From: Scytonema millei VB511283
GTDB taxonomy: Bacteria > Cyanobacteriota > Cyanobacteriia > Cyanobacteriales > Chroococcidiopsidaceae
DNA: 64,000 nt
Assembly (NCBI RefSeq): GCF_000817735.3
Contig: NZ_JTJC03000001.1
Span: 753,710-817,709 of the forward strand
Reading direction: 5' to 3'
The translations under genes and the position numbers were made by a program. Under the pieces are notes generated by a model. That model was not told the origin of the DNA and ran no database searches. It was given only the letters and a program-made list of their open reading frames with translations. Numbering within the stretch: position 1 is the stretch's first letter; every line of letters starts with the position of its first letter. Of this stretch, positions 27,105-46,860 are shown one piece after another.

Positions 27105-30100
27105 CTACTCCCTGCTCCCTTCTAACTGTTGATAAGCCTCCAACAATCCCTTAACTTCACTGGGAGAAAGATGCTCGATCCGTTCCAACAATTCAACTGC
27201 CATTTTCTCCGGTGTTTGTCCCGAAGTATTGCTCAGATCGGGTCGGCTAGAGCGGCTGGAATCAACATAGCCTCCTAGCGTGGAGTGAATCAGGATATGG
27301 GTGTCCTTGAGCTTAAACCAGGAACGAATCCGTTCAAAAGCAATACTACCGACTTGACACATCCCAATTCCGTAACTTGGAGCCGAAACCTCTAGCTGAT
27401 GTGCCATAATTCCCGATTCCAAGGTAACAAAGTGAATTCCTCGATCGCCATAGCCAGGTCCAATCGCATCTAAATCGGCAATGAAGAAGATGGAGAAGGC
27501 ACATTCATCAAACATTGGTGCATTAATGGATGGAATATGGACTCCTCTGTCAATATCGACATTAGGTGTCAAAACAACGAGTTGATGTTCTTCTGGATGA
27601 TAGTAGTAAACACCAGCTGGCACATTTTCAATGCGTCCGGGTTTGATATGCAAGTAAACTTGAGTTGGATTCAAACCGCCAGGGGAAGCGTAGAGAAACT
27701 TAGATTGACCGTCTAGGATAATTTGAGACAAACAGCTCAAAAACAAACTGAATTTCTCAAATGGGATCGATTTTAATAAAAACTTACGATAACTGCTGCG
27801 ATCGCTATACTTTTTCCGTAAGCTCTCATCAATAACAGGTTGCTGTAATTGAATTGCAACCATTTCGCTCAGATCTCGCCGGATTCCTGGGCGCGATTTC
27901 TTAAATTTCTCCCGCTCTTCAGGATCGAGAATAATTTTATAGGAAGACAGCAGCGATTTATTTCCTAATAAACTGTCATCTGTATTGCTAGAAACAGATC
28001 GATCTTCTTGCCGCTCGTAATAATCAACTAGAGCTTGAATTGACTGCAAGCGGAACAATTCATCAATACGGGGACGGTTTTTGAATTCCTTCTCCAGTTG
28101 ATTGCCAATTCTCACCATATCGAGAGAATTCGCACCTACACTCAGTAAGTTCGCATCCAAATCGACATTTTCCAGCTGCAATACTTCACGCACAATTCGA
28201 CTGACTTTCGCCTGAATCCCTGAAGACTGCTTTTGAGATTTATTTTTGGTAGGAGTCGCGTCCGTTGCAAAAGGTGCAGGTAATGCCCGACGATCGACTT
28301 TACCATTACGAGTCAAAGGAAACTGCTTCAGCATTACGAAAGCAGCAGGAACCATGTGTTCTGGCAACTTAGAGCGTAAAAACAAGCGCAGTTCGTCAGT
28401 ATTTAACTCTGGCTCTTTCGCCGGAATGACGTATGCTACTAAAAGTTTTTTGCCTTTCTGGTCGTAAGTCGTCGCGATCGCCGAGCTAACACCTGCGTGT
28501 TGTTGTAAAGTTGACTCAATTTCCCCCAGCTCGATCCGCTGACCGTTAATTTTAACTTGGAAATCGACTCGCCCCATAAACTCAATCGTCCCGTCGGGGC
28601 GGAAACGCCCCATATCCCCAGTTCGATAAATTCGTTCGCCAGTGCGGGGATGTTGAATAAATTTGGCGTTGGTTTTCTCGGTGTCATGCCAATAGCCTTT
28701 AGCAACTCCCACGCCAGCAACGCACATTTCCCCCGATACCCAGGCGGGACACTCGACTAAAGCCTCGTTGAGAATGTAGTAGCGAGTGTTAGGAATCGGT
28801 CGTCCGTAGGGTATGCTTTTCCAGTTCAGATCGAATGCCTCCACGGGATACCAAATATTCCACAGCGTTGTTTCCGTGGGACCACCAACACTAACTACCT
28901 TAGCTCCCTCTACCAGAGCCTCAAGACGCTTCGGAATCGTCAGCGGAATCCAATCCCCACCCAGGAACGCCAGCCGCAATGTCGATGGAATGACATCCGT
29001 GCGTTCGCCTGCATATTCCAAAAACATATCCATCATTGCCGGAACCGAATTCCAGAGCGTAATCTGATGCTTCATGCACAGATCCGACCAATGGGAGGGG
29101 TCGCGTCGTCCGCTTGCGTCAGGAATAATTAGACTTCCTCCAGCACCTAACACGCCAAATAGGTCGAAGATAGACATATCGTGATGCAGGGCTGTCAACC
29201 CTAAAACGCGATCGCCAGAATTAATCTCAAATTGCTTTTGAGTGCAGACAACTGCATTCACCAATCCGCGATGGCGAATCATTACGCCTTTCGGCAAGCC
29301 AGTAGAACCCGAGGTGTAGAGGACAAAGGCGAGATCGTCAGGTGTTTGAATCGGTTCTAAGGGGCGATCGTCAATATTTTCCAAGTTTTCGCGATCGACG
29401 CAGAGGCGCTGCACGCGATCGAACCACTCCAGGCGATCGTCTAACCAAGATTGAGTCAGGACAACTTCAACTCTGCCATTCTCCAGCAGGTAGTCAAGCC
29501 GTTCTTTCCCAACTGTGGCATCAATCGGGAGGTAAGCAGCACCAGCGTGTAATACGCCCAGAGCAGCTATCACTTGCTCCCAACCCTTTTCCATCACGAT
29601 TGCGATCGGTTGGTTTGGTTGCGCTCCTAAATTCCGCAAATGCCGTCCCCAACGGTTTGCGAGGGAATACAATTCTTGATAGGTTAAGGTTTTTTGAGTT
29701 GTAATAACCGCAGGTTGGTCTGGGCGTTGAGGTACTTGAGCCGCAATCAGATCGTGAAGCAAGATTTCCGGCATTGGCTGCTCGTCTCCGGCAGCTACCA
29801 ACTGCTGACCTGTCGCCACTATCACCCGCCGCATGACTTCCGACCAACTCTGCTGCCAGAGATTCTCATCAGTACCTAACAGATGGAGCAAATGGATAAA
29901 AGCATTTAAGAGATTTTGGGATAGCCCTTCAGGAAAAAGTTCTTCCACGGTATCCCAGTGGCAATAAAGCGCACCATTATGTTCAAAAACATGGTTATTC
30001 AGCCATACTTGGGAAGTTTGGTTAATGGCAAAGACAACCTCCCCCAGAGCTTCTGCTTGCTTCGTAGCGTAGGTACTTTGTCCGGTTTCATCTGCTGGAA

Positions 30101-31343
30101 TTGCGGTAAATACAACTGGCATCAGCGAACCAGAAAGCCGATTTTGAGCAACAGCAAGTTCCCGCAGGACTTCGACCCCGTTAAAGAAACGATGCTCTAT
30201 ATCGCTCCAAAGTTGCGCCTGTAAACGTTGCGATCGCTCGGCAAAGGAAGCATCTCCCCTATTGTCAATTTCCAGCACCGTGAATGAGGCATATTCCCCA
30301 ATCAAACGGTTCACCTGTGAATGCAGTGGTAGGCGATTGAAACTTGGTATGTTAATGCAGAAATGCCGCTCTTTATTCCACAACGTCAGAACTTCAGCGT
30401 AGGCTGCTGCCAAAATGCCTGGTGCAGTAATCCCCAATTGAGTCGCCTGCGATTTAAGGCGCTGCCAAATAGGAGCTTCTACCACCCTTTCTCGGCGCAC
30501 AAACCTGCCACTGGTGAGAGCTGACGGCTGCTTAGCAAGGGGTAAATCTGGTCTTAAGGGTAAAGAATCGATTCGTTTGCGCCAGTAATCCTGCGATCGC
30601 CTGTACTCCTCGGAATTAGCCAACGATCGCTCTGCCAAGACATAATCGCGAAAGGTAATTTCTAAAGGCTCCAGTTGAGTTTCAGGATTGTGGTAAAGCG
30701 CCGCCCATTCCCTATAGGTAATTGCAATACTCCAACCATCAAAGATTAACTTATCTAAACTCACATGAATCCGCGTGCGTCCATCGTCCAGTAAAGTTGC
30801 TTGAATATCAAATAGGGGATACCGATCGCTAGGGAGGATTTGATGCGACATGCGATCGCGCACGTCTTTTAGCTGAGCTTTGACTGTTTCTACATCCCGT
30901 CCCCGCAAATCTAGCATCCGAAACTGATAGGGAGGCACATTTTCCAATACCTGTTGAGTTCCATCCGGCAGTACGACCGCTCGCATCATGTCATGACGAT
31001 CTATTAATCGTTGCCAAGCTTGAGTCAAGCGTTCCAGATCGAAGTTGCCTTCCAATTCCACATAGCTGTGACTGGCAACCTGTCCCATTTCCACTTCACC
31101 ACTGCGCCCAACCCAGTAAGCTTGTTGCAATCCAGTCAATGGAAAGGGGTGAAATCGTTCGTCAGGGGCAGCAGTAATCGTTGGTAGGTTAAATACTGCT
31201 CGCTGCGGTTGCCGCTCTTGTTTGACACCTACTTTTTTCTCGCGAATTAACTGAGCTAGCAAAGCTTTTCGTTCGGGTGAAAGAGATTGGAGCTTGTCAA
31301 CGTGCGCTTGGGAATTTAACTTTTGGCTTATAATTTCAGTCAT
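27105..31343 (-). CDS. NRPS module: heterocyclization-adenylation-carrier-oxidase (Cy-A-T-Ox)
   Basis: 1412 residues. Cyclization domain about 60-500: Cy1 motif FPLTGLQQAYWVGR (67-80) and the catalytic DxxxxD as DKLIFD (197-202), which replaces the HHxxxDG of normal condensation domains. Adenylation domain about 525-1025: A3 YTSGSTGLPKG, A7 YRTGD, A10 NGKVDRR. Carrier domain about 1043-1112 with the phosphopantetheine site GANSL (S1073). C-terminal FMN-dependent SagB/nitroreductase-type oxidase domain about 1135-1362. Read by eye, the specificity pocket is D-M-F-N-F-G-V-L-W-K, nearest the cysteine code DLYNLSLIWK. Such modules make thiazolines (or oxazolines) and oxidise them to thiazoles (or oxazoles). 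It is probably co-transcribed with the gene at 31445-36100 (101-bp gap). Confidence 0.92.
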   Translation of the reverse strand: MTEIISQKLNSQAHVDKLQSLSPERKALLAQLIREKKVGVKQERQPQRAVFNLPTITAAPDERFHPFPLTGLQQAYWVGRSGEVEMGQVASHSYVELEGNFDLERLTQAWQRLIDRHDMMRAVVLPDGTQQVLENVPPYQFRMLDLRGRDVETVKAQLKDVRDRMSHQILPSDRYPLFDIQATLLDDGRTRIHVSLDKLIFDGWSIAITYREWAALYHNPETQLEPLEITFRDYVLAERSLANSEEYRRSQDYWRKRIDSLPLRPDLPLAKQPSALTSGRFVRRERVVEAPIWQRLKSQATQLGITAPGILAAAYAEVLTLWNKERHFCINIPSFNRLPLHSQVNRLIGEYASFTVLEIDNRGDASFAERSQRLQAQLWSDIEHRFFNGVEVLRELAVAQNRLSGSLMPVVFTAIPADETGQSTYATKQAEALGEVVFAINQTSQVWLNNHVFEHNGALYCHWDTVEELFPEGLSQNLLNAFIHLLHLLGTDENLWQQSWSEVMRRVIVATGQQLVAAGDEQPMPEILLHDLIAAQVPQRPDQPAVITTQKTLTYQELYSLANRWGRHLRNLGAQPNQPIAIVMEKGWEQVIAALGVLHAGAAYLPIDATVGKERLDYLLENGRVEVVLTQSWLDDRLEWFDRVQRLCVDRENLENIDDRPLEPIQTPDDLAFVLYTSGSTGLPKGVMIRHRGLVNAVVCTQKQFEINSGDRVLGLTALHHDMSIFDLFGVLGAGGSLIIPDASGRRDPSHWSDLCMKHQITLWNSVPAMMDMFLEYAGERTDVIPSTLRLAFLGGDWIPLTIPKRLEALVEGAKVVSVGGPTETTLWNIWYPVEAFDLNWKSIPYGRPIPNTRYYILNEALVECPAWVSGEMCVAGVGVAKGYWHDTEKTNAKFIQHPRTGERIYRTGDMGRFRPDGTIEFMGRVDFQVKINGQRIELGEIESTLQQHAGVSSAIATTYDQKGKKLLVAYVIPAKEPELNTDELRLFLRSKLPEHMVPAAFVMLKQFPLTRNGKVDRRALPAPFATDATPTKNKSQKQSSGIQAKVSRIVREVLQLENVDLDANLLSVGANSLDMVRIGNQLEKEFKNRPRIDELFRLQSIQALVDYYERQEDRSVSSNTDDSLLGNKSLLSSYKIILDPEEREKFKKSRPGIRRDLSEMVAIQLQQPVIDESLRKKYSDRSSYRKFLLKSIPFEKFSLFLSCLSQIILDGQSKFLYASPGGLNPTQVYLHIKPGRIENVPAGVYYYHPEEHQLVVLTPNVDIDRGVHIPSINAPMFDECAFSIFFIADLDAIGPGYGDRGIHFVTLESGIMAHQLEVSAPSYGIGMCQVGSIAFERIRSWFKLKDTHILIHSTLGGYVDSSRSSRPDLSNTSGQTPEKMAVELLERIEHLSPSEVKGLLEAYQQLEGSRE

Positions 31344-31444
31344 TGGCTTGATTTACACCAACAGAATAGATTTAGAAAAATTTATGCAGGGGTTTTAAGT
31401 GGCTAGTTGGCGATCTCCCTCTCAAAGAGCGATCGCCAGCATTG

Positions 31445-34400
31445 TTACTTCAGCAGCGCCATCACTTCTTCATCAGACAATTGCGCCAAATACTCGATCG
31501 TGTCTTCCATGTCATCTAGATTGACTTGCATAGCTTGAGCTTGTTCGATCTGTCGAGCCATACCCCCGACAGTCGGGAATTGAAATAAATGAATCAACGG
31601 TAAGTCAATACTAAATGTCGAGCGGATCGTTCCCATCAATGACACGGCGATCAAAGAGTTGCCTCCCAAACTAAAGAAGTTATCTCCCGTACCAATTTCA
31701 GACACCTGAAGTAAGTTTTGCCAAATCGCCATTAGGGTTTGCTCAACCTGATTTTGAGGTGCTGTCTGCTCGATCGCCCTATTCAACTGCACCGTCGTCG
31801 GCGCAGGCAGTGCCTTGCGATCGACCTTATTGTTTGGCGTGAGTGGAAAAGCCTCTAGCACGACAAAGTTGGAGGGAACCATGTACTCTGGTAATTGAGC
31901 GAGTAAGTATTCTCGCAACTGTGAGTTAGCAGGCTGCTGTCCTGGCTGTAGTAGTAAGTAGGCAACCAGGCGCTTATCACCCGGTACATCTTCGCGAACT
32001 ACGATCGCTGCTTCTCGAACTGCCTCGTGGCGACTTAAAATTGTCTCAATTTCGCCTAGTTCGATGCGATATCCCCGCACCTTGACTTGAAAGTCGATGC
32101 GACCGAGGAATTCTACGTTCCCATCCCTGCGGTAACGTACCAAATCTCCCGTGCGGTAGAGACGGTCGGTCGGATTTTGACTCAAAGGATGGGGAATAAA
32201 CCGCTCTTGAGTTAACTCCGGTCGGTTCAGATAACCGCGAGTCACACCTGCTCCCCCGATCAGGAGTTCGCCTGCGACTCCGATGGGAACGGGCTGCCCG
32301 TTCCGATCTAAGATATAAAGTTCGGTATTGGCGATTGGACGACCGATGGGAACAACTCCATCTACTTGGGTTAGTGTATGAGTCGCCGACCAGATGGCGG
32401 TTTCTGTAGGACCGTACATATTATGAACTTGTCCCGCCACAATTTGCTGGAGTTGAAGCGCCAAGGCTTCGGTCAAAGCTTCGCCGCCAACCATCATCTG
32501 ACGTAACTGTTTCATGGCGGCGCGAGTAGCGGGATCGGCAATTAACAAACTCGCCATTGAGGGAGTGCATTGCAGGTGTGTCACTTGATGGCGCTCGATC
32601 AGTCCCGCCACAGAATGGTTCTGTGTTGCGGCTTCAGTCATAGGCAGATTGGACTGTTCCTTCACGCGATCGAGTAGCGGTAGTTGGGACAAGACCAGAT
32701 CGGTGTCGATGCCATAGTCAATCAAACAGGCAATTTCATCCACGTCAATGCCTTTGATGCGATCGACTATCTGCAAACAAGTTTCTACAGTCCCGAACAA
32801 ACCACTGGTTTCAAAGTATCGTTCAAAGGAGAAATCCAGCACCTCATCCAGATCTCGCTCGGATAAGTGAGATATCGCAAATTGTCCTTTGTCGTTCGTG
32901 GTTTTCTGCTTGAAAGTGGGAAAAGCCCATGCAGCTTGCTTGATTAAATCGAGAGAAGTGGCGAGATATTGCCGCATCGGTTGACGCACAATTTCGCGGA
33001 CGGCATCATCGCTCTGACCTACAAAGGTATGGAGCATCAAGGTTACAGTCCCCTGACCGGAATGTCCGTTTTCTGCCCATGCTTGTCGGTAAAGGGCAAT
33101 TTTTTCTGCTAATTCTTCTAGGCTCTGCCCCAATAAGTGAGTCAGAATATGAAAACCTTTAGCACCTGCCATGCGAAATGTTTCTGGATTGCCTGCGGCA
33201 GTAATCCAGACTGGAAGTTCGGGTTGAATCGGACGTGGCAGTGTTTGAACGGCTACAGCTTCACCTTTTCCATTCGGATAAGTTACAGATTCCCCGCGCC
33301 AGAGCGATCGCACCTCCTCAATCTGCTGGAACATAATGTCCTTACGATTCTCGAAGGTTTCCGGGCGCAGGACAAAATCATTTGGTTGCCAGCCAGGGGC
33401 GAAGGAAATCCCCACCCGACCACCTGACAAATTATCCACAATAGACCAATCTTCGGCAATTCGTACCGAGCTATGCAGTGGAGAAACACAGCTACCCGCC
33501 CGAATCTGGATCTGTTTGGTCGTTGCCGCGATCGCCGCACTGGTAACGGCAGGGTTGGGAAATAGCCCCCCGAAGGCATGGAAGTGCCGTTCTGGAGTCC
33601 AGACGGCTTTAAATCCGTTCGTATCGCCAAACTTAGCGCCTTCAGTCAATAGACGATATTTAGCGGCAGCATCTCCACCATTCTCATCACTAGAGAAATA
33701 GAACAAACTGAAATCGATCGCCTTGTTAGCATTCTGGAGCGATAACGGCTTAGCAGCGGTACGCTCTTTCTTGGCATTGTAGATGACGACCTTAAACCCC
33801 CGTGCTAGCGTCCAAAACAGCTCTAACACGGAAATATCAAAGGACAAACTCGTGACCGCTAACCAGACTCCAGGGGGGTTATGCTCGATAACCCCATCCA
33901 TTCCCGTAAAGAAGTTGACTGCATTACGGTGTTCTACCATTACACCCTTCGGCTTGCCCGTAGAACCAGAGGTATAGATGACGTAGCTGAGATTTTCTGG
34001 CTTGACTCCACTATCGGGATTGGCGATCGCCTCTCGCTCGATCTCATCCCACATCGTATCGATGGGAATAAGATTAACACCAGGCTCGACCACTAAATTG
34101 CTAATTAACTTCTGCTGGGTGACGATAACCGCAGCTTGAGAGTCTTTCAGCATGAAGCCAATTCGGTCTGGGGGAAAATCTGGATCGAGAGGAACGTAAG
34201 CACCCCCTGCTTTGTGAATTCCTAACAACGCTACCATCATCTCCAGCGATCGCTCTACGTGCAACCCTACGAGAACATCGGGACCTACGCCTTGTCTTTG
34301 TAAATAACGAGCTAGTTGATTGGCTTTGGCATTCAACTCTCCGTAGGTTAACTGTTGCTGCTCAAAAGCAACGGCGATCGCATCGGGGTTAAGGGTGACT

Positions 34401-36100
34401 TGCTGCTCGAACAACTGATGGATGCAGCGATCGCTAGAGTATGGTTTGACTGTTTGGTTCCACTCCACCAAAATTTGGTGTAGTTCTGTAGCCGAGAGTA
34501 ACGGGAGTTGGTGCAGTAATTGTTCGGGATGTTCGACGCAGGCGCTAATTAAATTCTGAAGTCGTTGAGCGATCGCTGCACTATTTACTTCATCAATCGA
34601 GCCAGCATGAACCAATTCCGGCAAACTACCATCTTCATAGGCAACAAGGGCAATCGTTGCACCCAAATGAGTCCAGTCTAGTTGCTCGGGGCTAGCTGCC
34701 AGGACAATCGCTACTTGAAAAGAATTCTGGGAAAGCTTTTGTAATTCTGGATGACGGGCAAAGATATCTAAAGTATAACTACCTAAACGAGACGCACGAT
34801 CTAATCCTGCTGCCAAGCGTTTCTGAAAATCGGTAAAGGAATCCTCAGCAACAGACTGAACGCGAATCGGAACTTGTTGAGCAAAAATTTCTGGAGCAAT
34901 ACTGCGCTGTGCTGCGGTTTGCAGCCCCAAGTCAAACTCTGGCTCTGTTGCCAATCGCGTGCAATAAGCTGCGAACATGGTTAGTAGCGATCGCGGTTCT
35001 ACCGGTTTGGGTGGCAGCAAGATGGGGTATCGGTGCAAACGCTCGGACGACGCATTCAGCGCTCCAACCTGTAAATAGGGATGTTGAAACGGAGTCAGTT
35101 GTGCCAGTTGCTTGACCCACGACCGTTCGTGGCGAGCGATCGCCGCATTACGCTGACCGATCGCATCTCTCAGTTCGGCATCCAGTTCGGGTAAAATAAC
35201 GCCAATACGCACGCCGTAAGATTGCTGCAAGTTTTCTAACGTGAGGGGTTTTCCCTCAAGCGATGTCAGACGGCTGAGCCGTACCGCACCATCCTGAGTG
35301 GCAATGCAAATTCCATCTGCATCAAGTTCCAACACCTGCCTCGCGCTCCCGTATGAGGTTACTACTGCATCAGCAGCTCCCACAGCAACGACTCCACCTG
35401 GTAAACAGAGTTTTGGTAAGCCTAGTGGATTGCGGATTGGACCAAAATCTAATGCTCGCACTAAATTACAAAGCTCTTTACTGCTCGTGTCAAACGACAA
35501 AACGCAAGCTGCTGCTGGGCGATCGCTGGAACCAAAATAACTCTGTTGCGAGCGATCCTGTGCTAATGGTTCTAGCCGATCGGTTGCCAGTTCCTCGATT
35601 AATTCGTCAAAGGTAGCGATCGCCACATCCAAGCAGCGAGCATTTAGATCGAATGCTGTATCAGTGGGTTCAATAGGTACTATTTGCTGTTTGAGAATGC
35701 GTCCAGCGTCAATGTCAGAGACAACTTCATGCCAGGTGATGCCGTGTTGCCGTTCGCCATGCAGCAGCGCCCAAGATGTTGCATATAACCCCGCATACTT
35801 TGGTAAAAGTGAATCGTGAAAGTTAATTGTTGCTTTTCGTGCCTGGGCAATGACTTTTGGTGGTACGATCCACCAGACGTTGTTAATACTAAAAAGGTAG
35901 TCGTACTCAGTACTAAGTAGCCGATCTTGAAAAGCAGATAGAGAAGGAGCATGAGGAATATTACGTTCCTCTGCAAACTTAACTAGTGAGTTCTCTGCTG
36001 AAAAAACTCCAAGGACTTTGTGTTCTGCTGTTAATAAAATCTCTAAGCACTTTACGGCAAGGACACCATCACCTACAACAAAACAAGAGAAACTAGACAT
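31445..36100 (-). CDS. NRPS: formyltransferase - condensation lobe - adenylation with inserted luciferase-like monooxygenase - carrier
   Basis: 1551 residues. 1-300: methionyl-tRNA-formyltransferase-like domain with the catalytic Asn-His-Asp set (INFHDSLLP, N93 and H95; DAG, D131). 320-545: resembles only the C-terminal lobe of a condensation domain, with no HHxxxDG. 555-1435: adenylation domain with A3 YTSGSTGKPKG (709-719), interrupted at about 793-1145 by a complete MupA/Atu3671-type FMN luciferase-like monooxygenase (DFSLFYFSSDENG, VWTPERHFHAFGG, NLSGGRVGISFAPGW). The A domain then resumes (VHNMYGPTETAIW, YRTGD). 1448-1520: carrier with GGNSL (S1482). Pocket residues read D-I-L-Q-M-G-M-I-W-K, close to known glycine codes. 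It probably loads and N-formylates glycine, with an FMN-dependent oxidation. Confidence 0.92.
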   Translation of the reverse strand: MSSFSCFVVGDGVLAVKCLEILLTAEHKVLGVFSAENSLVKFAEERNIPHAPSLSAFQDRLLSTEYDYLFSINNVWWIVPPKVIAQARKATINFHDSLLPKYAGLYATSWALLHGERQHGITWHEVVSDIDAGRILKQQIVPIEPTDTAFDLNARCLDVAIATFDELIEELATDRLEPLAQDRSQQSYFGSSDRPAAACVLSFDTSSKELCNLVRALDFGPIRNPLGLPKLCLPGGVVAVGAADAVVTSYGSARQVLELDADGICIATQDGAVRLSRLTSLEGKPLTLENLQQSYGVRIGVILPELDAELRDAIGQRNAAIARHERSWVKQLAQLTPFQHPYLQVGALNASSERLHRYPILLPPKPVEPRSLLTMFAAYCTRLATEPEFDLGLQTAAQRSIAPEIFAQQVPIRVQSVAEDSFTDFQKRLAAGLDRASRLGSYTLDIFARHPELQKLSQNSFQVAIVLAASPEQLDWTHLGATIALVAYEDGSLPELVHAGSIDEVNSAAIAQRLQNLISACVEHPEQLLHQLPLLSATELHQILVEWNQTVKPYSSDRCIHQLFEQQVTLNPDAIAVAFEQQQLTYGELNAKANQLARYLQRQGVGPDVLVGLHVERSLEMMVALLGIHKAGGAYVPLDPDFPPDRIGFMLKDSQAAVIVTQQKLISNLVVEPGVNLIPIDTMWDEIEREAIANPDSGVKPENLSYVIYTSGSTGKPKGVMVEHRNAVNFFTGMDGVIEHNPPGVWLAVTSLSFDISVLELFWTLARGFKVVIYNAKKERTAAKPLSLQNANKAIDFSLFYFSSDENGGDAAAKYRLLTEGAKFGDTNGFKAVWTPERHFHAFGGLFPNPAVTSAAIAATTKQIQIRAGSCVSPLHSSVRIAEDWSIVDNLSGGRVGISFAPGWQPNDFVLRPETFENRKDIMFQQIEEVRSLWRGESVTYPNGKGEAVAVQTLPRPIQPELPVWITAAGNPETFRMAGAKGFHILTHLLGQSLEELAEKIALYRQAWAENGHSGQGTVTLMLHTFVGQSDDAVREIVRQPMRQYLATSLDLIKQAAWAFPTFKQKTTNDKGQFAISHLSERDLDEVLDFSFERYFETSGLFGTVETCLQIVDRIKGIDVDEIACLIDYGIDTDLVLSQLPLLDRVKEQSNLPMTEAATQNHSVAGLIERHQVTHLQCTPSMASLLIADPATRAAMKQLRQMMVGGEALTEALALQLQQIVAGQVHNMYGPTETAIWSATHTLTQVDGVVPIGRPIANTELYILDRNGQPVPIGVAGELLIGGAGVTRGYLNRPELTQERFIPHPLSQNPTDRLYRTGDLVRYRRDGNVEFLGRIDFQVKVRGYRIELGEIETILSRHEAVREAAIVVREDVPGDKRLVAYLLLQPGQQPANSQLREYLLAQLPEYMVPSNFVVLEAFPLTPNNKVDRKALPAPTTVQLNRAIEQTAPQNQVEQTLMAIWQNLLQVSEIGTGDNFFSLGGNSLIAVSLMGTIRSTFSIDLPLIHLFQFPTVGGMARQIEQAQAMQVNLDDMEDTIEYLAQLSDEEVMALLK

Positions 36101-36726
36101 AATTATTTCCTATTGCACATGGTCAACTGAATCATCTAATTCACCGTACTAACAGGGGTATTACTCATAAGCACTGCAAAGCTGTATACCCTGTTTTAGT
36201 AAGAATATTGGGTAGTAATTGATAAGTAACTACATATTTTTTTGAAACGATATTTATATTTAGAATATAATTAAATTTAGTTTTGGCATTCATTCATACT
36301 TTACACTTTGAGAACGTAAATTGACTCAGTAAAACTTCTGTCAGCACATTCACTTAGAAATAAGTTTGAGAGATAATAAGAGATAAAGAATGAGGCTTGG
36401 TTGCAATAAAGTTGGTGGCTTGACCAAGAGCGATTGCTAAAGCTAATTCAATGTTTAGTTCTAACTTAACTTTCTATCAACCGAGACAAAATTTTTAAAC
36501 TGTAAATCACAATCAATAAATAACCTATAAAAAGCTAATCTTTTATGAAGATAAAACAAAGGTTTAGAAGATGCGCGTTAAGATTTAGTGAAACTCTTTT
36601 GTCTTTATACTAGATTGAGCTATTTGCTAAGTATCATTTGCTTGCAAGAGGCTGAGTATTTAATAGGCGATCGCAGTTTGAATCGTTTGTTGATTCAGTA
36701 TTTCTACTTCAAAGATATCTAGAGCA
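36101..36726. promoter_or_regulatory. Divergent promoter region of the NRPS locus
   Basis: 626 bp between divergently transcribed NRPS genes. AT-rich, with no ORF, no tandem-repeat block and only one HIP1-like site near 36668, unlike most gaps here. Promoters for both transcripts must lie in it. I could not pick out a dependable operator or -10/-35 pair by eye. Confidence 0.55.
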
Positions 36727-39492
36727 ATGGCAACACTTACTACAGATCCCAATCTTTTTCAAAGTTTAGTTAGATTATCAACAGAACAACGTCAGTTATT
36801 TGAACTACTACTCAAAAAGCAAGGTGAGGATTTAGCTCAATTTGGTATTCCGAAGCGAACGATATCCGAGCTGATGCCGCTGTCATATTCTCAGGAAAAA
36901 ATTTGGACGATTGCACAGTTAACTCCAGATTCATTCGTTGATAACGTACCTGTGGCTTTTCATGTTTCTGGAGAGCTGAATTTACCAGTCTTTGAAAAAA
37001 GTGTAAATCTTCTGATCGAGCGGAATGAAATTTTACGGACTACATGTAAAGTTCGCGATCGCCAGCCAATTCAAACTTTAATGCCTACCTTTAAACCTTG
37101 GGTAAAGACAATCGATCTCAGTAGTTTTACTCGGGAAGAAAGATTAGAACGTGCTGCAAATAGAGCGAAAGAAATTGCACAGATGCCATTCGATCTATCA
37201 CAAGATGTGCTTTTTCGAGCTACAGTATTTTGCCTTGGGGAACAAGAGTTTCTCATGCTCCTGGTGACGCATCAGTTTGCCATTGATGGATTGTCTGTCA
37301 GATTTTTACTGCAAGAATTAGCAATTTTGTACAAAGCAATTTTAGTTGGCGATCGCCCATCTCTTCCAGAGCCAAATATCCAATATGCTGACTTCGCAGT
37401 TTGGCAGCGACAATGGTTTTCTGATGCAATCTTTGAACCGCAAATTACTTACTGGAAAAAACAGCTCAGCAGCGTGCCGTCACAGTTACAATTACCCATT
37501 TATCAAAGTCGTCAATTTGCCACGCTTGAAGCAGGATGTGAAAAATTTGAGTTTTCCCTAACTTTATCTGATAAATTAAGAGCGTTATGTCGCCAGCAAG
37601 GTGTCACATCCTTCATGGCATTTGTAGCTTTGTTTCAAATCATCCTACATCGCTGTACGTTAGAAAATGACATAAGTATCGGTACGATTATTTCAAATCG
37701 TAACCGTAGCGAAATCGAGAAAGTTGTAGGAAACTTCGCTAACAACCTTCTCCTCCGTACAACCTTTTCTAACGATTTGAACTTTGGTGATGTTTTAGCA
37801 AAAGTTCGAGAGACAATCCTTGATGCTTATACTTATCAAGATGTACCTTTTCAATGCTTAGCTGAATCTTTAAAAAGCCTGCCTCAATTTCAAGCCTTGC
37901 TGTTGGTAAGAGATAGTACCACGGCTCAAAATTTGGCTCTACCCGATCTTCAAGTGCAAGACTTTCCAGTCAATCTGGGTGTTACTCGAATGGAATTGAA
38001 CTTGGACATCACCGATAGTGGCAAAGGTTCTATTTTTGGAAAGCTAGAGTACAAATCAGCATTATTTGAAGCGTCAACCATCAAACAAATTTTGAAGAAT
38101 TTGCAAGCTCTGTTAGAAAGCGTGACTGAAAATCAAGATCGGAAAATCGCCGATATCGTACTGCCTGAAGCGATCGATTGTTCCCTATACAATGAGAATT
38201 TACAAGACAAATCAACTACGGCACAAATCTCTAGCAAACAAGTTGTAGCTCCTACAACAGAGATGGAAAAAGAACTTGTCGCAATATGGTCGGAAATTCT
38301 GGGTCATCCGCAAGTTGGCATCCACAATAACTTTTTTGAGTTAGGTGGTCATTCTCTATTAGCTGTGAAACTATTTGCTGAGATGGAGAAGCGGTTTGGG
38401 AAAAACTTACCGCTATCTACTCTATTTCAAGCACCAACTATTAACCAGCTAGCCGATATTGTCCAACGTACTGAAGAGACAGTTTCTTGGTCTCCTCTAG
38501 TGACTATTCAAGCTGGTGACTCCAAGAAACTCCCACTTTTCTGCGTACACGGTGCTGGATTTAACGTACTGATCTATCGTGATGTAGCACTCAATTTAGG
38601 CTCAGACCAACCTGTATATGGATTGCAAGCGAGGGGTTTAGATGGCAATAGACCCGTACACCTAGACTTTGAGAGTATTGCAGCTGACTACATTCGTGAA
38701 GTTCAGTCTGTTCAACCTGAAGGACCCTATATGATAGGAGGGTTATCAAATGGCGGTTGTATTGCATTTGAAATGGCGCAACAACTTCACGCTCAGGGAC
38801 AAGAAGTGATTTTGCTAGCTTTGTTCGATACTTATACTCCAGATGCTATTGCGCTACTTCCTCCTTTGCCACGATTTCTATCCTCTGTTAATTATCTTCG
38901 GCAGCACATGCTTCCTCCTTACCTGCTAAAAGTGCGATCGCAGCCTCAGATTTTACTGAGCGAGTTGCAAGTAGCTTTGGGAGCAATTGGGAAAGTTTTG
39001 CGACAATCTAAAGCTGGAACACAGGCATTAGAGCGAGAAAAGAAGCGTGCCTTGTTCTCAAAAGTTCATACGCAAAAGTCAAGTTCTATGTTTGCAGATC
39101 CAGAGGATATTTCAGCCTCTAGTTTTTTGGAACAGAGATTAGCTCAAATCAGCCAATATATTCTCCAACGTTCTTCATGGTCATTTCTCACGCCGTCAAC
39201 TCAGCTTGATGAAATGGATGATGTCATATCCACAAATCTGAAGAATTTAGAGGAGATTTATAGCAAAGGTCAAGAGACTTACAACCCTCAGCCATATTCA
39301 GGAAAAGTGACTGTCTTTAAAGCTGGAGAAACTCCTCCAGGTCATCAGGTAGATGCTAAATTGGGATGGAGTCGTATTGCTCAAGCTGGAGTCGAAGTGT
39401 ATGAGATTCCTGGTAATCATACGTCTATCATGGCATCTCCACTTTTAGCGGAAAAATTGAGATTGTGTATTGAAAAGGCTGTCGGCAGCTGA
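36727..39492 (+). CDS. NRPS: condensation - carrier - thioesterase (no adenylation domain)
   Basis: 921 residues. Condensation domain about 45-480, opening with LMPLSYSQEKIW. The active-site motif at 182-188 reads HQFAIDG, so the second histidine, normally the catalytic base of HHxxxDG, is Gln. Carrier domain about 505-580 with GGHSL (S543). Type I thioesterase about 590-921: CVHGAGFN, nucleophile elbow GGLSNGG (S674), D701 and a final GNHTSIM histidine. There is no adenylation domain anywhere in the gene. Either an amino acid is loaded in trans or the module only receives and releases the chain. Transcribed away from the other two NRPS genes. Confidence 0.92.
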   Translation: MATLTTDPNLFQSLVRLSTEQRQLFELLLKKQGEDLAQFGIPKRTISELMPLSYSQEKIWTIAQLTPDSFVDNVPVAFHVSGELNLPVFEKSVNLLIERNEILRTTCKVRDRQPIQTLMPTFKPWVKTIDLSSFTREERLERAANRAKEIAQMPFDLSQDVLFRATVFCLGEQEFLMLLVTHQFAIDGLSVRFLLQELAILYKAILVGDRPSLPEPNIQYADFAVWQRQWFSDAIFEPQITYWKKQLSSVPSQLQLPIYQSRQFATLEAGCEKFEFSLTLSDKLRALCRQQGVTSFMAFVALFQIILHRCTLENDISIGTIISNRNRSEIEKVVGNFANNLLLRTTFSNDLNFGDVLAKVRETILDAYTYQDVPFQCLAESLKSLPQFQALLLVRDSTTAQNLALPDLQVQDFPVNLGVTRMELNLDITDSGKGSIFGKLEYKSALFEASTIKQILKNLQALLESVTENQDRKIADIVLPEAIDCSLYNENLQDKSTTAQISSKQVVAPTTEMEKELVAIWSEILGHPQVGIHNNFFELGGHSLLAVKLFAEMEKRFGKNLPLSTLFQAPTINQLADIVQRTEETVSWSPLVTIQAGDSKKLPLFCVHGAGFNVLIYRDVALNLGSDQPVYGLQARGLDGNRPVHLDFESIAADYIREVQSVQPEGPYMIGGLSNGGCIAFEMAQQLHAQGQEVILLALFDTYTPDAIALLPPLPRFLSSVNYLRQHMLPPYLLKVRSQPQILLSELQVALGAIGKVLRQSKAGTQALEREKKRALFSKVHTQKSSSMFADPEDISASSFLEQRLAQISQYILQRSSWSFLTPSTQLDEMDDVISTNLKNLEEIYSKGQETYNPQPYSGKVTVFKAGETPPGHQVDAKLGWSRIAQAGVEVYEIPGNHTSIMASPLLAEKLRLCIEKAVGS

Positions 39493-43076: not shown

Positions 43077-44081
43077 ATGCCGAACAAATTTTTTCTGAGC
43101 AAATCCAAAATTTGGAACCGCCGCCAATTGTTGCAATGGGGGTTAGCGGGTGTGGGAACTGCTGGTGCTGCTGCTGTAGGGCTACACTTTGCATCCCGAA
43201 GTCATTCCGCCGTGCGCGTGCCACCCATACCACCTAGCGATCCCTCAGACGATCGTGGTTTGCAACCCATGACCGTTCTCAGAAATTTCGATTACGGCAC
43301 GCTGAAACGAGAAAACGGACGGAATATTCGCGAATTTCGGATTACAGCTCAAAATACGACGATTCAACTCAATCGCGCTGTTGTTTTTAATACCTGGAAT
43401 TTTAACAATCGCATTCCAGGACCAACTTTACGCGCCAAACAAGGCGATTTCGTCCGCGTTGTCTTTCTCAATCAAGGCGGACATTCTCATTCAATGCACT
43501 TTCACGGCATTCATCCTACAGAAGAAGATGGCGTGCGTCCGATTCGGCACGGTGCGGCAACAGTTTACGAATTTGAGGCAAAGCCATATGGCATTCATCT
43601 CTACCACTGTCACGCCGAGCCTGTGACCCGTCACATCGGTAAGGGATTGTACGGTATGTTCATCATCGATCCGCCTCAAGGACGACCGCCAGCGGATGAA
43701 ATGATTTTAGTTATGGGTGGCTTTGATGTGGATGAAGATAAGCACAACGAGCTGTATGCCTTTAATGGTTTGCCGGATTACTACCACATGCACCCAATAC
43801 CTGTTTACCAAAATCAACTCATTCGGCTTTATTTGCTGAACATGATCGAGTTAGATCCGGCGGTGACATTTCACATTCACGCTAACTTCTTCAAGGTTTA
43901 TCCCACGGGGATGACTCTCAACCCCAGCCACGAATCAGATGTCATCACAATGGGGACAGCCGAACGTCATATTTTAGAATTTGCCTACCCTTATACGGGC
44001 AAGTATATGTTTCATCCCCATCAAGACGCGATCGCCGAAGCAGGATGCATGGGCTATTTTGACGTGATTGGTCAAGCATAA
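43077..44081 (+). CDS. Two-domain multicopper oxidase, Tat-type signal
   Basis: 334 residues. The N-terminus has a twin-arginine-like signal (NRRQLLQWG followed by a hydrophobic AGVGTAGAAAVGLHF). Cupredoxin domain 1 carries HSMHFHGIHP and HLYHCHAEPVTRHI, and domain 2 carries FHIHANFFKVYP and MFHPHQDAIAEAGCMGYFDV: the His and Cys residues of type 1, 2 and 3 copper sites are present. Two-domain oxidases of this kind include ferroxidase- and nitrite-reductase-like members. Position upstream of a bacterioferritin-like protein and an FTR1 permease suggests a ferroxidase that feeds iron uptake. Substrate is inference. Confidence 0.85.
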   Translation: MPNKFFLSKSKIWNRRQLLQWGLAGVGTAGAAAVGLHFASRSHSAVRVPPIPPSDPSDDRGLQPMTVLRNFDYGTLKRENGRNIREFRITAQNTTIQLNRAVVFNTWNFNNRIPGPTLRAKQGDFVRVVFLNQGGHSHSMHFHGIHPTEEDGVRPIRHGAATVYEFEAKPYGIHLYHCHAEPVTRHIGKGLYGMFIIDPPQGRPPADEMILVMGGFDVDEDKHNELYAFNGLPDYYHMHPIPVYQNQLIRLYLLNMIELDPAVTFHIHANFFKVYPTGMTLNPSHESDVITMGTAERHILEFAYPYTGKYMFHPHQDAIAEAGCMGYFDVIGQA

Positions 44082-44152
44082 ATACTAGTTTTTGTCAAAT
44101 CAGTTGACAATAATTTTCACCGAAACTCACTTTTCAATAAGGAAGGCTGAAA

Positions 44153-45259
44153 ATGTTGCGGAAATTACCAAACGGGCGGAGAGTGGCACAAGACAAAGAT
44201 TCCTGGTTTCTAAACTTCGATCGCAGACTGAGAGCGATCGCGCGGTTCTTGTTACTCAGTATGAGCGCTGCAATGTTGGCGATCGTTGTTAGTTGCACTC
44301 AACAAACACCAGATACCAGTAACAATCCCTCTCCAGCCCCTGCAACGAATACAAGCGCCTCTGCACCCAACCATCAACAACACGGTGGAAAAGAGCAAAT
44401 TAACATCAACACTGCCATCCTTTCAGAATTAGATAAATTTGAAGCCATGTTGGGCGTACCTGCCTTGTCTAATAAAATTCAAGCCAGCCGCCCCTACGCT
44501 AACCCCGAAGAACTCGTCTCTAAAAATGTCGTCACCCAAGAGCAATTCGACAAAATTAAGGACATGGTAACGGTAGAAGATGTGGTGCTGACTGGGGAAG
44601 CTAAAGATGTAGACTACATGTCCAAACTCGGCTTGATGAAAGGACACTTAATCGTAGCAAAAGAGTTACTCGACAAGCAGCTACCGAAGCAAGCAGAACC
44701 CCACATCGGACACCCAGTAGAAGAAATCTACGTAGATGTGGAAGATCAGCTTAACGAACGCAACGTCAAAGAATTTAAGACAACTTTGATTGGCTTGCAA
44801 GATTTAATTAAAGCTCAACCCAAGTCCGATAAAGTGCAAGCCGACTTTTCAGCTTCTATGCAAGCAGTAGACGGCGCGATCGCGGCATTACCAGAAAAGG
44901 AGCGTTCCTCTGCCGCATTTAACCTGCAAGTCATCAACGAATTACTCGATGCTGCTAACTCCGAATATGGTGCGGCGATCGCTAATGGTAAAATTTCAGC
45001 TGCGATTGAGTACCAAGACTCCCGTGGTTTTGTCATCTATGCCAACAACCTTTATCAAAAGATCGCCGACCAAATGGCAAAGGAAAACCCCGAAGCACAC
45101 AAGACAATAGAGACTAGTCTAAAAGACCTTGCCAAAGCTTGGCCCTCTCCCGTTCCACCAGCCAAACCTGTCAACACTCCCGAGGAAGTAACCCAGTTAG
45201 TCAAGGCGATCGAGCAAAACTCGCAGCAAGTTATTAGCAAATCTAATCCCTCTGCCTAA
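44153..45259 (+). CDS. Lipoprotein with helix-hairpin-helix and helical domain, iron-cluster associated
   Basis: 368 residues. A long basic N-terminal region precedes a lipobox (AIVVSC, Cys at about 48). A Pro/Ser/Thr/Asn linker follows, then a ComEA-like helix-hairpin-helix unit (INTAILSELDKFEAMLGVP to about 140) and a four-helix-like C-terminal region (GHLIVAKELLDKQLP, HPVEEIYVDVEDQL, AIAALPEKERS). It is anchored in a membrane with its domains outside the cytoplasm. In this position it may play the part EfeO has in EfeUOB systems, holding or passing on iron. That is inference: the helical part only loosely recalls EfeO. Confidence 0.7.
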   Translation: MLRKLPNGRRVAQDKDSWFLNFDRRLRAIARFLLLSMSAAMLAIVVSCTQQTPDTSNNPSPAPATNTSASAPNHQQHGGKEQININTAILSELDKFEAMLGVPALSNKIQASRPYANPEELVSKNVVTQEQFDKIKDMVTVEDVVLTGEAKDVDYMSKLGLMKGHLIVAKELLDKQLPKQAEPHIGHPVEEIYVDVEDQLNERNVKEFKTTLIGLQDLIKAQPKSDKVQADFSASMQAVDGAIAALPEKERSSAAFNLQVINELLDAANSEYGAAIANGKISAAIEYQDSRGFVIYANNLYQKIADQMAKENPEAHKTIETSLKDLAKAWPSPVPPAKPVNTPEEVTQLVKAIEQNSQQVISKSNPSA

Positions 45260-45317
45260 ACCCAGATTTGTTAAAGTTAGAAATTGTCTATCGTCAGTAG
45301 GTAGTACATTATTATTA

Positions 45318-45376
45318 TCTACTGACAACTGACAACTGATAACTGATAACTGATAACTGATAACTGATAACTGACA
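45318..45376. repeat. Short tandem repeats ending at the bacterioferritin start codon
   Basis: CTGACAACTGACAACTGATAACTGATAACTGATAACTGAT and so on: seven or eight alternating 10/7-bp units ending CTGACA directly before the ATG at 45377. Confidence 0.9.
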
Positions 45377-45823
45377 ATGCGCGAACTCGACCAAAAACAG
45401 ACAATCGAACTGCTAAACTCCATCATGGAGTTTGAACTGGCGGGGGTAGTACGCTACACCCATTACTCTTTGATGGTGACTGGTCCCAACCGGATTCCAA
45501 TTGTCGAGTTTTTCAAACTGCAAGCTACCGAGTCTCTCACCCATGCCCAACAAGTAGGAGAAATTTTAACTGGTTTGGACGGACATCCCAGCCTGAGAAT
45601 TGCTCCGATGGAGGAAACCTACAAGCATACGGTACGGGATATTTTGGAAGAAAGTCTTTCTCACGAACGGAAAGCGCTAGATTTATATAAAAAACTGCTC
45701 GATACTGTAGAAGATGCCAGCGTTTATCTAGAAGAATTTGCCCGTACCATGATTGGCACGGAAGAACTGCACAACATCGAAATTAAAAAGATGCTGCGCG
45801 ACTTTAGTGGTAGTGCTGTGTAA
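45377..45823 (+). CDS. bfr: Bacterioferritin-like iron-storage protein
   Basis: 148 residues, four-helix ferritin-like fold. Ferroxidase ligands are visible: E19 (NSIMEFELAG), E52 and H55 in ATESLTHAQQ, E91 and H96-type pattern in ILEESLSHERKAL, and E129/H132 in IGTEELHNIEI. Size is slightly short for bacterioferritin (about 155-160). It oxidises and stores iron, or protects DNA in a Dps-like way. The start abuts a tandem repeat with no ribosome site. Neighbours are iron-linked. Confidence 0.85.
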   Translation: MRELDQKQTIELLNSIMEFELAGVVRYTHYSLMVTGPNRIPIVEFFKLQATESLTHAQQVGEILTGLDGHPSLRIAPMEETYKHTVRDILEESLSHERKALDLYKKLLDTVEDASVYLEEFARTMIGTEELHNIEIKKMLRDFSGSAV

Positions 45824-45921
45824 TGTCAAGAGTTGACAGTTGACAGTTGACAGTTGACAGTTTTCACGCAGTGTAGTGCCAGCGTCTACAGTTGACAGTC
45901 AACTAACATCATGAGAGAAAA

Positions 45922-46860
45922 ATGAATTTTAGTGCCGCTCTACCTACTTTTGTCATTACTCTGCGGGAGGGAGTAGAAGCAGCCCTCGTCGTGGGGATCG
46001 TTTTGGCTCTGCTCAAGAAAGCCAAACAGAGCAAACTCAACTCCTGGGTTTATGCTGGTGTTGGAGTTGGAATTGCCGCGAGTGCGTTGGTGGGGTTGTT
46101 ATTCAGTGCCATTATTCAAGCTCTAGGTTCAATAAATCCTGAATATACTCCAGTGGTAGAGCCACTGATGGAAGGAGCCTTCAGTGTTGTGGCGATCGCT
46201 ATGCTTAGCTGGATGCTGATTTGGATGACTCGTCAAGCGCGGTTTTTGAAGGCGGAAGTGGAAGGGACGGTAACGGCGGCGCTCAAACAAGACAATGGTG
46301 CGGGTTGGGGCGTTTTTAGCTTAATTTTCATTGCCGTACTGCGAGAAGGCTTTGAAACCGTCTTATTCATTGCTGCCAATTTTCAACAAGGTTTTTTTCC
46401 AGCGATTGGGGCAATTGGTGGTTTAGTGACGGCGATCGCGATCGGAGTTTTGTTATTTAAGTGGGGCGTAAAAATCAATATTCGCCTCTTTTTCCAAATC
46501 ATGGGCGTTCTGTTATTGCTGATTGTGGCAGGGTTAGTTGTTTCTGCACTAGCACATTTTGACACTGCTGTTGCTACTCTTGCCAAATTAGATCGACAGT
46601 CAGAAAGTCTGTGTTTTTATTACGAACGCTTCACCCGCAATCCTTCTTGTATTCTGGGACCAAGAGTATGGAACACCTCGAAAATTTTACCAGACGAGCA
46701 ATTTCCTGGCGTAATTTTAAAAGCCTTATTTGGCTATCGAGACGACCTATTTTTAGTCCAAGTGATATCTTACATAGGGTTTTTAGTGACTGTAGGCGGG
46801 ATTTATTTCCGCAGTTTAGGTATGGGTGCAAGTAAGCCAAAATCAGAGGCAGCGACTTAA
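45922..46860 (+). CDS. FTR1-family high-affinity iron permease (EfeU-like)
   Basis: 312 residues, seven membrane helices. Both iron-binding REGxE motifs are there: REGVE (15-19) and REGFE (near 140-144). FTR1/EfeU permeases take up iron that an oxidase has just oxidised, so the multicopper oxidase two genes upstream is the likely partner. GAGAGAAAA precedes the ATG. A repeat block separates it from the bacterioferritin gene, so it may have its own promoter. Confidence 0.93.
   Translation: MNFSAALPTFVITLREGVEAALVVGIVLALLKKAKQSKLNSWVYAGVGVGIAASALVGLLFSAIIQALGSINPEYTPVVEPLMEGAFSVVAIAMLSWMLIWMTRQARFLKAEVEGTVTAALKQDNGAGWGVFSLIFIAVLREGFETVLFIAANFQQGFFPAIGAIGGLVTAIAIGVLLFKWGVKINIRLFFQIMGVLLLLIVAGLVVSALAHFDTAVATLAKLDRQSESLCFYYERFTRNPSCILGPRVWNTSKILPDEQFPGVILKALFGYRDDLFLVQVISYIGFLVTVGGIYFRSLGMGASKPKSEAAT

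Follow-up and report, generated by a model that had tools for sequence, protein, structure and literature searches.

What would a three-gene NRPS locus make when its starter module carries both a formyltransferase (F) domain and a flavin monooxygenase? The locus that raises this question lies at 27105-39492 of the window, a 64,000-nucleotide stretch of Scytonema millei VB511283. It had been described as a compact three-gene NRPS locus, and this description was confirmed. The three genes were all intact and encode F-[C-lobe]-A(LLM)-T (gene 1), Cy-A-T-Ox (gene 2), and, divergently, C-T-TE (gene 3). Their frames at 31445-36100 (minus strand, 1551 aa), 27105-31343 (minus strand, 1412 aa), and 36727-39492 (plus strand, 921 aa), respectively, were all open. 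The Pfam/NCBIfam matches were formyl transferase N (5.9e-20), AMP-binding (4.1e-92, split in two around a luciferase-like monooxygenase [LLM]), and PP-binding for gene 1; Condensation (1.5e-40), AMP-binding (6.2e-89), PP-binding, and Nitroreductase (2.2e-14) for gene 2; and Condensation (6e-79), PP-binding, and Thioesterase (4.2e-23) for gene 3. Reading these domains together, we give about even chances to a three-protein line that would make an alpha-oxidised, formylglycine-derived thiazole-4-carboxylate. The features of the locus are as follows.

31445..36100, minus strand: gene 1, F - C-lobe - A(LLM) - T, predicted initiation module (Pfam/NCBIfam; 93% identical orthologue in congener G148)
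35201..36100, minus strand: formyltransferase domain, residues 1-300, N93/H95/D131 (Pfam, residue conservation)
34451..35188, minus strand: condensation-domain C-terminal lobe, without N-lobe (hhalign 98.7%)
33731..34435, minus strand: A domain of gene 1, N-terminal part with a4, code D-I-L (Pfam, code reading)
32660..33712, minus strand: MupA/Atu3671-family LLM in the A domain, between a4 and a5 (TIGR04020, 2.7e-154; PuwE 6ket, 2.9e-111)
31796..32635, minus strand: A domain of gene 1, C-terminal part, code Q-M-G-M-I-W (Pfam, code reading)
31550..31741, minus strand: carrier domain T1, GGNSL (Pfam)
31448..31540, minus strand: C-terminal tail of gene 1, possible docking element (orthologue comparison)
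27105..31343, minus strand: gene 2, Cy - A - T - Ox (ORF, Pfam)
29883..31142, minus strand: heterocyclisation domain with DKLIFD (Pfam; aligns to FmoA3 and BmdB)
28299..29741, minus strand: A domain of gene 2, Cys-like code DMFNFGVLW (code reading)
28020..28208, minus strand: carrier domain T2 (Pfam)
27273..27803, minus strand: Ox domain, nitroreductase family (Pfam; BmdC, 4.5e-32)
36101..36726, no strand: divergent intergenic region; the congeners' DUF362 gene is absent, with ~1244 bp gone at 36721-36725 (comparison with congeners)
36727..39492, plus strand: gene 3, C - T - TE, divergent (ORF, Pfam)
36871..38166, plus strand: condensation domain, HQFAIDG (37270-37290) replacing HHxxxDG (Pfam, alignment)
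38272..38460, plus strand: carrier domain T3, in a protein without an A domain (Pfam)
38533..39489, plus strand: thioesterase, GLSNGG and GNHTSIM (Pfam, motifs)

Several features of gene 1 point to a formylating starter that would load glycine. First, the catalytic Asn, His, and Asp of F domains were kept in nearly all unique sequences (N93 in 84/84, H95 in 84/84, and D131 in 83/84), which supports the N-formylation predicted for this domain, and the domain stands upstream of A-T as in LgrA-type formylating initiation modules. The same order and the same catalytic residues are found in linear gramicidin LgrA and conglobatin CongA, the latter predicted to formylate glycine (PMC4504003); unlike in these, a C-lobe separates F from A in the window protein, and an LLM interrupts A. 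Second, the stretch between F and A matched the C-terminal lobe of the condensation domain (hhalign 98.7%, covering template positions 194-450 of 455, in a profile of 25 rows of which two came from the window; an LLM profile used as negative control scored 0.2%), so the condensation lobe noted earlier stands. Third, the code of module 1, D-I-L-Q-M-G-M-I-W, resembles the glycine code DILQLGLIW and supports the glycine loading proposed before. The Gly-like I-L|Q pattern was found by regular expression in 58 of 84 F-A(LLM)-T sequences, counted as distinct in their LLM, with 16 unreadable and 10 read otherwise.

The LLM occupies residues 797-1147 of gene 1, between motifs a4 (FDISVLELF) and a5 (NMYGPTE). 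This arrangement resembles the terminal modules of the myxothiazol and melithiazol lines, MtaG and MelG. There, a flavin monooxygenase inserted at the same a4-a5 site of a Gly-type A domain hydroxylates glycine, after which cleavage gives an amide and a glyoxyl thioester (PMC10204066). Solanimycin SolF likewise has a flavin monooxygenase inserted in a Gly A domain, reportedly at a8-a9, unlike that of the window, and solanimycin B retains alpha-hydroxyglycine (PMC10204066). In contrast to these systems as described, the window LLM sits in a formylating starter ahead of Cy. The sole close solved relative was PuwE; the puwainaphycin monooxygenase domain has a proposed part in making a 3-amino-2-hydroxy acyl chain (PMC4219810). 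In vitro, the family member MupA hydroxylates the position alpha to an ACP thioester (PMC10952193). Based on this site and these relatives, the LLM probably hydroxylates formylglycine at the alpha carbon. However, MupA requires a beta-keto group (PMC10952193), which glycine lacks, and this was counted against a hydroxylating line.

How far the function can be carried over also depends on the relationships of the LLM. In a tree of 91 LLMs, midpoint-rooted for drawing only and leaving out the MtaG, MelG, SolF, and MupA sequences, the window LLM fell in a cyanobacterial clade (100/100) among F-linked LLMs, the first branch of which was the C-linked LLM of a Xenococcus. Apart from that one, the window LLM grouped with F-linked LLMs, although a single clade of all F-linked LLMs was not recovered (2 changes needed). 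A separate clade (99/94) held PuwE together with four C-linked LLMs, and the function is therefore carried over at a distance. In place of F, the Xenococcus orthologue has a complete C domain (Pfam 2-455 of 456), and it retains the LLM and the following Cy-A-T-Ox. This means that F and C may both act as N-acylators. Formyl would be the smallest N-acyl group enabling the monooxygenase in a starter module. In the Acaryochloridaceae metagenome-assembled genome (MAG), a C domain stands ahead of F, and this was counted against a pure starter role of the F module.

Two other fates of the glycine were weighed. If the LLM were inactive, the line would make plain 2-(formamidomethyl)thiazole-4-carboxylate, for which F, the Gly-type code, Cy, and Ox are all present, and solanimycin A is a case in which a step of this kind is bypassed (PMC10204066). 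We regard this as very improbable, since the LLM was 77-83% identical in non-congener cyanobacterial relatives compared to 45-64% for F and the C-lobe (68-81% for the second A half), which makes it one of the best-conserved stretches of gene 1. The preliminary description had inferred a molecule near this compound, with oxidation of the glycine only as a possibility; given the LLM, the alpha-oxidised form is now the likelier of the two. The LLM might instead oxygenate nitrogen and give an oxime or N-hydroxyformamide, that is, an althiomycin-like oxime-thiazole start or a metal ligand. Necroxime modules are proposed to convert a glycine primer to an oxime by an oxygenase domain (PMC7318616), and althiomycin begins with Gly and a Cys-derived thiazole, built by Alb4 modules 1-2 with Cy and Ox (PMC3445576). 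Unlike in the window, althiomycin is made by a longer NRPS-PKS line, and its oxime is attributed to Alb2, a separate oxidase resembling AurF (PMC3445576); the described relatives of the LLM act at carbon (PMC10204066, PMC10952193). We consider N-oxygenation quite unlikely. Membership in an althiomycin cluster was rejected, as the AurF-like oxidase, the O-methyltransferase, and the PKS module are absent from the three island genes. Neither "formyl" nor "monooxygenase" occurs in the text of the althiomycin paper (PMC3445576).

A metal-acquisition link had also been considered, via the cobalt-transport operon adjacent to the locus, and was weakened. In G174, a genome of another genus, aroA lies ~850 bp from cbiM without an NRPS island, and thus the cobalt-transport neighbours are not evidence of metal use. 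The other four of five cbiM loci examined from other genera were without aroA within ~1.5 kb upstream. Downstream of the cobalt-transport operon, at 43077-46860 of the window, are genes that resemble those for multicopper oxidase and the FTR1 iron permease.

Gene 2 has the parts of a heterocyclisation module. Its Cy domain carries DxxxxD (DKLIFD), Cy-A aligns to FmoA3/BmdB, and Ox is homologous to the thiazoline oxidase BmdC of bacillamide (4.5e-32). The earlier expectation of a thiazole or oxazole from Cy plus Ox thus holds for these two domains, but the A2 code is Cys-like rather than canonical. The code DMFNFGVLW was the same in the window and in its orthologues from G148, G186, Xenococcus, and the MAG, whereas BmdB has the canonical Cys code DLYNLSLIW and DLYN(L/M)SLIW is the reading in six other Cy-A domains from cyanobacteria. 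A conserved departure of this kind would fit a module that takes Ser, Thr, or a modified Cys and forms an oxazole or a substituted ring, and we hold this to be possible but less likely. However, nine other Cy-A domains have intermediate codes, for instance DLYNIGIIW, DLYNFGIVW, and DMYNFGVLW, that connect to the Cys code. Our preferred reading stays with a Cys-type residue.

Gene 1 and gene 2 may also be matched by a terminal element. The tail after T1 ends LSD(E/R)EVMALLK in the window, G148, and G186 and LSEAEVLALLHQ in the MAG, with weaker likeness in Xenococcus and in an Ignavibacteriaceae locus (L053). A tail of similar type occurs in Cy-partnered versions of gene 1, and none was seen in the stand-alone or PKS-associated versions compared. 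From this pattern, the tail is a possible docking element.

The C domain of gene 3 has HQFAIDG rather than HHxxxDG, a point absent from the preliminary description. HQxxxDG was found in 5/5 orthologues (window plus four), whereas the 19 remaining C domains of that alignment had HH in 18 cases and HR in 1. Pfam found no A domain in the protein. The release claimed for TE is consistent with the Thioesterase domain, but extension by one unit, also suggested earlier, found no support given HQxxxDG and a T3 without an A domain. Gene 3 could still add a unit if T3 were loaded by an A domain elsewhere, or if its C domain condensed a free amine, as the terminal C3 of bacillamide BmdB reportedly does with tryptamine. 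The C-T-TE order is conserved in full-length orthologues (dN/dS 0.17), and the genome has a 562-aa A-like open frame, which scored below the family cutoff. BmdB does end in C3 (PMC8795117). Weighed against the altered motif and the lacking A domain, unit addition is possible but holds a minor share of our confidence. The probable role of this C domain in the preferred reading would be docking or hand-over only, and its conserved HQxxxDG is a second testable oddity of the locus.

Taken in the predicted order gene 1, gene 2, gene 3, the line would work as follows. Gene 1 would load glycine, formylate its nitrogen, and hydroxylate its alpha carbon by the built-in flavin monooxygenase. Gene 2 would add the Cys-type residue, cyclise it, and oxidise the ring to a thiazole. 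Gene 3 would take up the thiazole-4-carbonyl, and TE would release it. The putative product is a small thiazole-4-carboxylate (or amide/ester) whose C2 arm would be formamido(hydroxy)methyl, or an aldehyde after loss of formamide. Counted for this pathway were the Gly-type code, the F residues, the Cy-A/Ox homology, the tail, the dN/dS values, and a 288-aa open frame in the genome that matches the PPTase family. Counted against it were the nonstandard A2 code, the missing DUF362 gene, and the absence of flavin reductase and transporter genes from the three-gene island. The aldehyde would arise if formyl served as a traceless group: formylation would turn glycine into a substrate of the built-in monooxygenase, and the resulting N-formyl carbinolamide would shed formamide, giving a glyoxylyl thioester and finally 2-formylthiazole-4-carboxylate (calculated [M+H]+ 157.9906). 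We put this forward tentatively and think it doubtful. If true, the logic would extend to the F-A(LLM)-T modules that stand alongside PKS genes across many phyla. For the other candidate products, the calculated [M+H]+ values are 203.0121 (formamido-hydroxymethyl), 187.0172 (formamidomethyl), and 173.0015 (oxime).

A search for the same three genes in other cyanobacteria, as the preliminary description had proposed, found the set in three congeners including the window (the others being G148, locus L028, and G186, locus L029), in a Xenococcus, probably MO_188.B8 (G267, loci L037/L049), and in the Acaryochloridaceae MAG RU_4_10 (L077). The copies differ in condition. In G186, genes 1 and 2 are interrupted, and two of the intruding ORFs are transposases. 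The Xenococcus locus L037 has extra NRPS genes, and in the MAG the ORFs are split and gene 3 is truncated at its T. Pairwise dN/dS values against G148 were 0.14, 0.10, and 0.17 for the three window genes, and on these values their degradation was rejected; the G186 copy, however, is broken. No frameshift, named earlier as a ground for doubt, interrupts the three frames; as to inactive domains, likewise named, the C domain of gene 3 is without the second His. Gene 3 may also differ in history. Its region is AT-rich (37-41% GC in 2-kb bins compared to 47-51% for genes 1-2), and dS to G148 was 0.24 for gene 1, 0.35 for gene 2, and 0.63 for gene 3, compared to 0.12-0.13 for four flanking genes. 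As the value for gene 3 is much above those of its neighbours, this gene may have been exchanged.

A DUF362 gene adjoins the set in the four other loci. The window's genome has no match to PF04015, and the ~1244 bp holding the gene are missing, which indicates that the window lost it. Together with the interrupted genes in G186, this would suit a set decaying in the genus and an ancestral product no longer made in the window strain; we hold this unlikely, as the three window genes are open with dN/dS of 0.10-0.17. The function of DUF362 was not indicated by a search of solved structures (nothing better than E 0.87), and structure prediction from six sequences was poor (mean pLDDT 53.4). Five of the six DUF362 proteins have what we take to be a Tat-like start. 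The family belongs to Pfam clan CL0471 (PMC11770544, PMC7955657), which it shares with the DUF2088 of LarA (PMC11770544). The genes lie at L028 6326-7402, L029 12456-13556, L037 3133-4242, L077 1723-2556, L032 12804-13931, and L033 12222-13349. They accompany F-A(LLM)-T both in the Cy set (four loci) and in the hexapeptide-transferase loci (2/7).

The three-gene set and its starter module differ in distribution. Gene 1 matched (at 1e-150) in 20 of 291 genomes of the order, some partially, and in 3 of 19 genomes of the family, all three belonging to the window's genus. When GTDB species genomes were scanned, 465 stretches matched, and the analysis covered the best 80 of them; F and LLM lay within one open stretch in 78 of these 80. 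Among the 70 non-cyanobacterial loci of the best 80, F plus LLM was found in all 70, a KS-motif ORF in 55, such an ORF also with a TE match in 47, and a Cy match in 1, the KS tally being of a short motif in ORFs of >600 aa, not of Pfam matches, with some contigs too short to show a partner. The KS motif was found in 0 of the 10 cyanobacterial loci of the best 80. A partner checked by Pfam (L084) had KS, AT, KR, DH, ACP, and TE; the one Cy locus, L053, had Cy and the start of an A domain after gene 1, followed by the contig end. Across the best 80 of 465, the module was seen in Cyanobacteria, Chloroflexota, Myxococcota, Rhodobacteraceae, Burkholderiales, and others, so F-A(LLM)-T itself is common in many phyla. 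Gene 3 matched only in the window's own genome (1/386 across the phylum at 1e-200), which says little on frequency because G148 and G186 would match but evidently lay outside the sample.

Each part of the locus is known from described systems. Bacillamide BmdA/BmdB/BmdC is likewise a three-protein thiazole pathway with homologous Cy-A and Ox; it is given as A1-PCP1-Cy2-A2-PCP2-C3 plus a separate oxidase, a list without F, LLM, or TE (PMC8795117). The calyxamide/keramamide lines combine a formyl starter, heterocyclisation, and a thiazole but, unlike the small line of the window, make large multimodule cyclic peptides (PMC12858407). The open-licence PMC papers searched yielded neither a system that joins F to a lone C-lobe, a Gly A domain interrupted by an LLM, and Cy-A-T-Ox, nor a cluster with exactly this three-gene set. 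The earlier statement that no characterised cluster has this set stands within that literature, but F-A(LLM)-T alone is common. No product assignment for the F-A(LLM)-T starter was found in the same open-licence literature. With three genes, the locus is small enough for expression, which would reveal what this starter makes.

Other settings of the module were also observed. All seven stand-alone F-A(LLM)-T genes (Dolichospermum/Anabaena-type and Chamaesiphon; within L030-L036 and L040-L042) were adjacent to or one gene from a hexapeptide transferase of 218-232 aa, and in the same group of loci this transferase was near 3/3 A-T genes that match F in part and have no LLM. L030 also has sugar-transferase and glycosyltransferase genes. 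Such loci may serve to transfer an acyl group from a carrier to a sugar. In the F-A(LLM)-T plus KS loci (L050-L122), a formamido-furanone product can be drawn on paper as speculation; a PPTase gene was present in both of the loci checked (L050 and L084). Finally, G148 has a gene at L144 6436-9996, set among polysaccharide genes, with part of a C domain followed by A-T-TE. Its A domain is 85-91% identical to A1 of the window, and an in-frame deletion probably removed the LLM, since only a scar of the LLM's C terminus is left.
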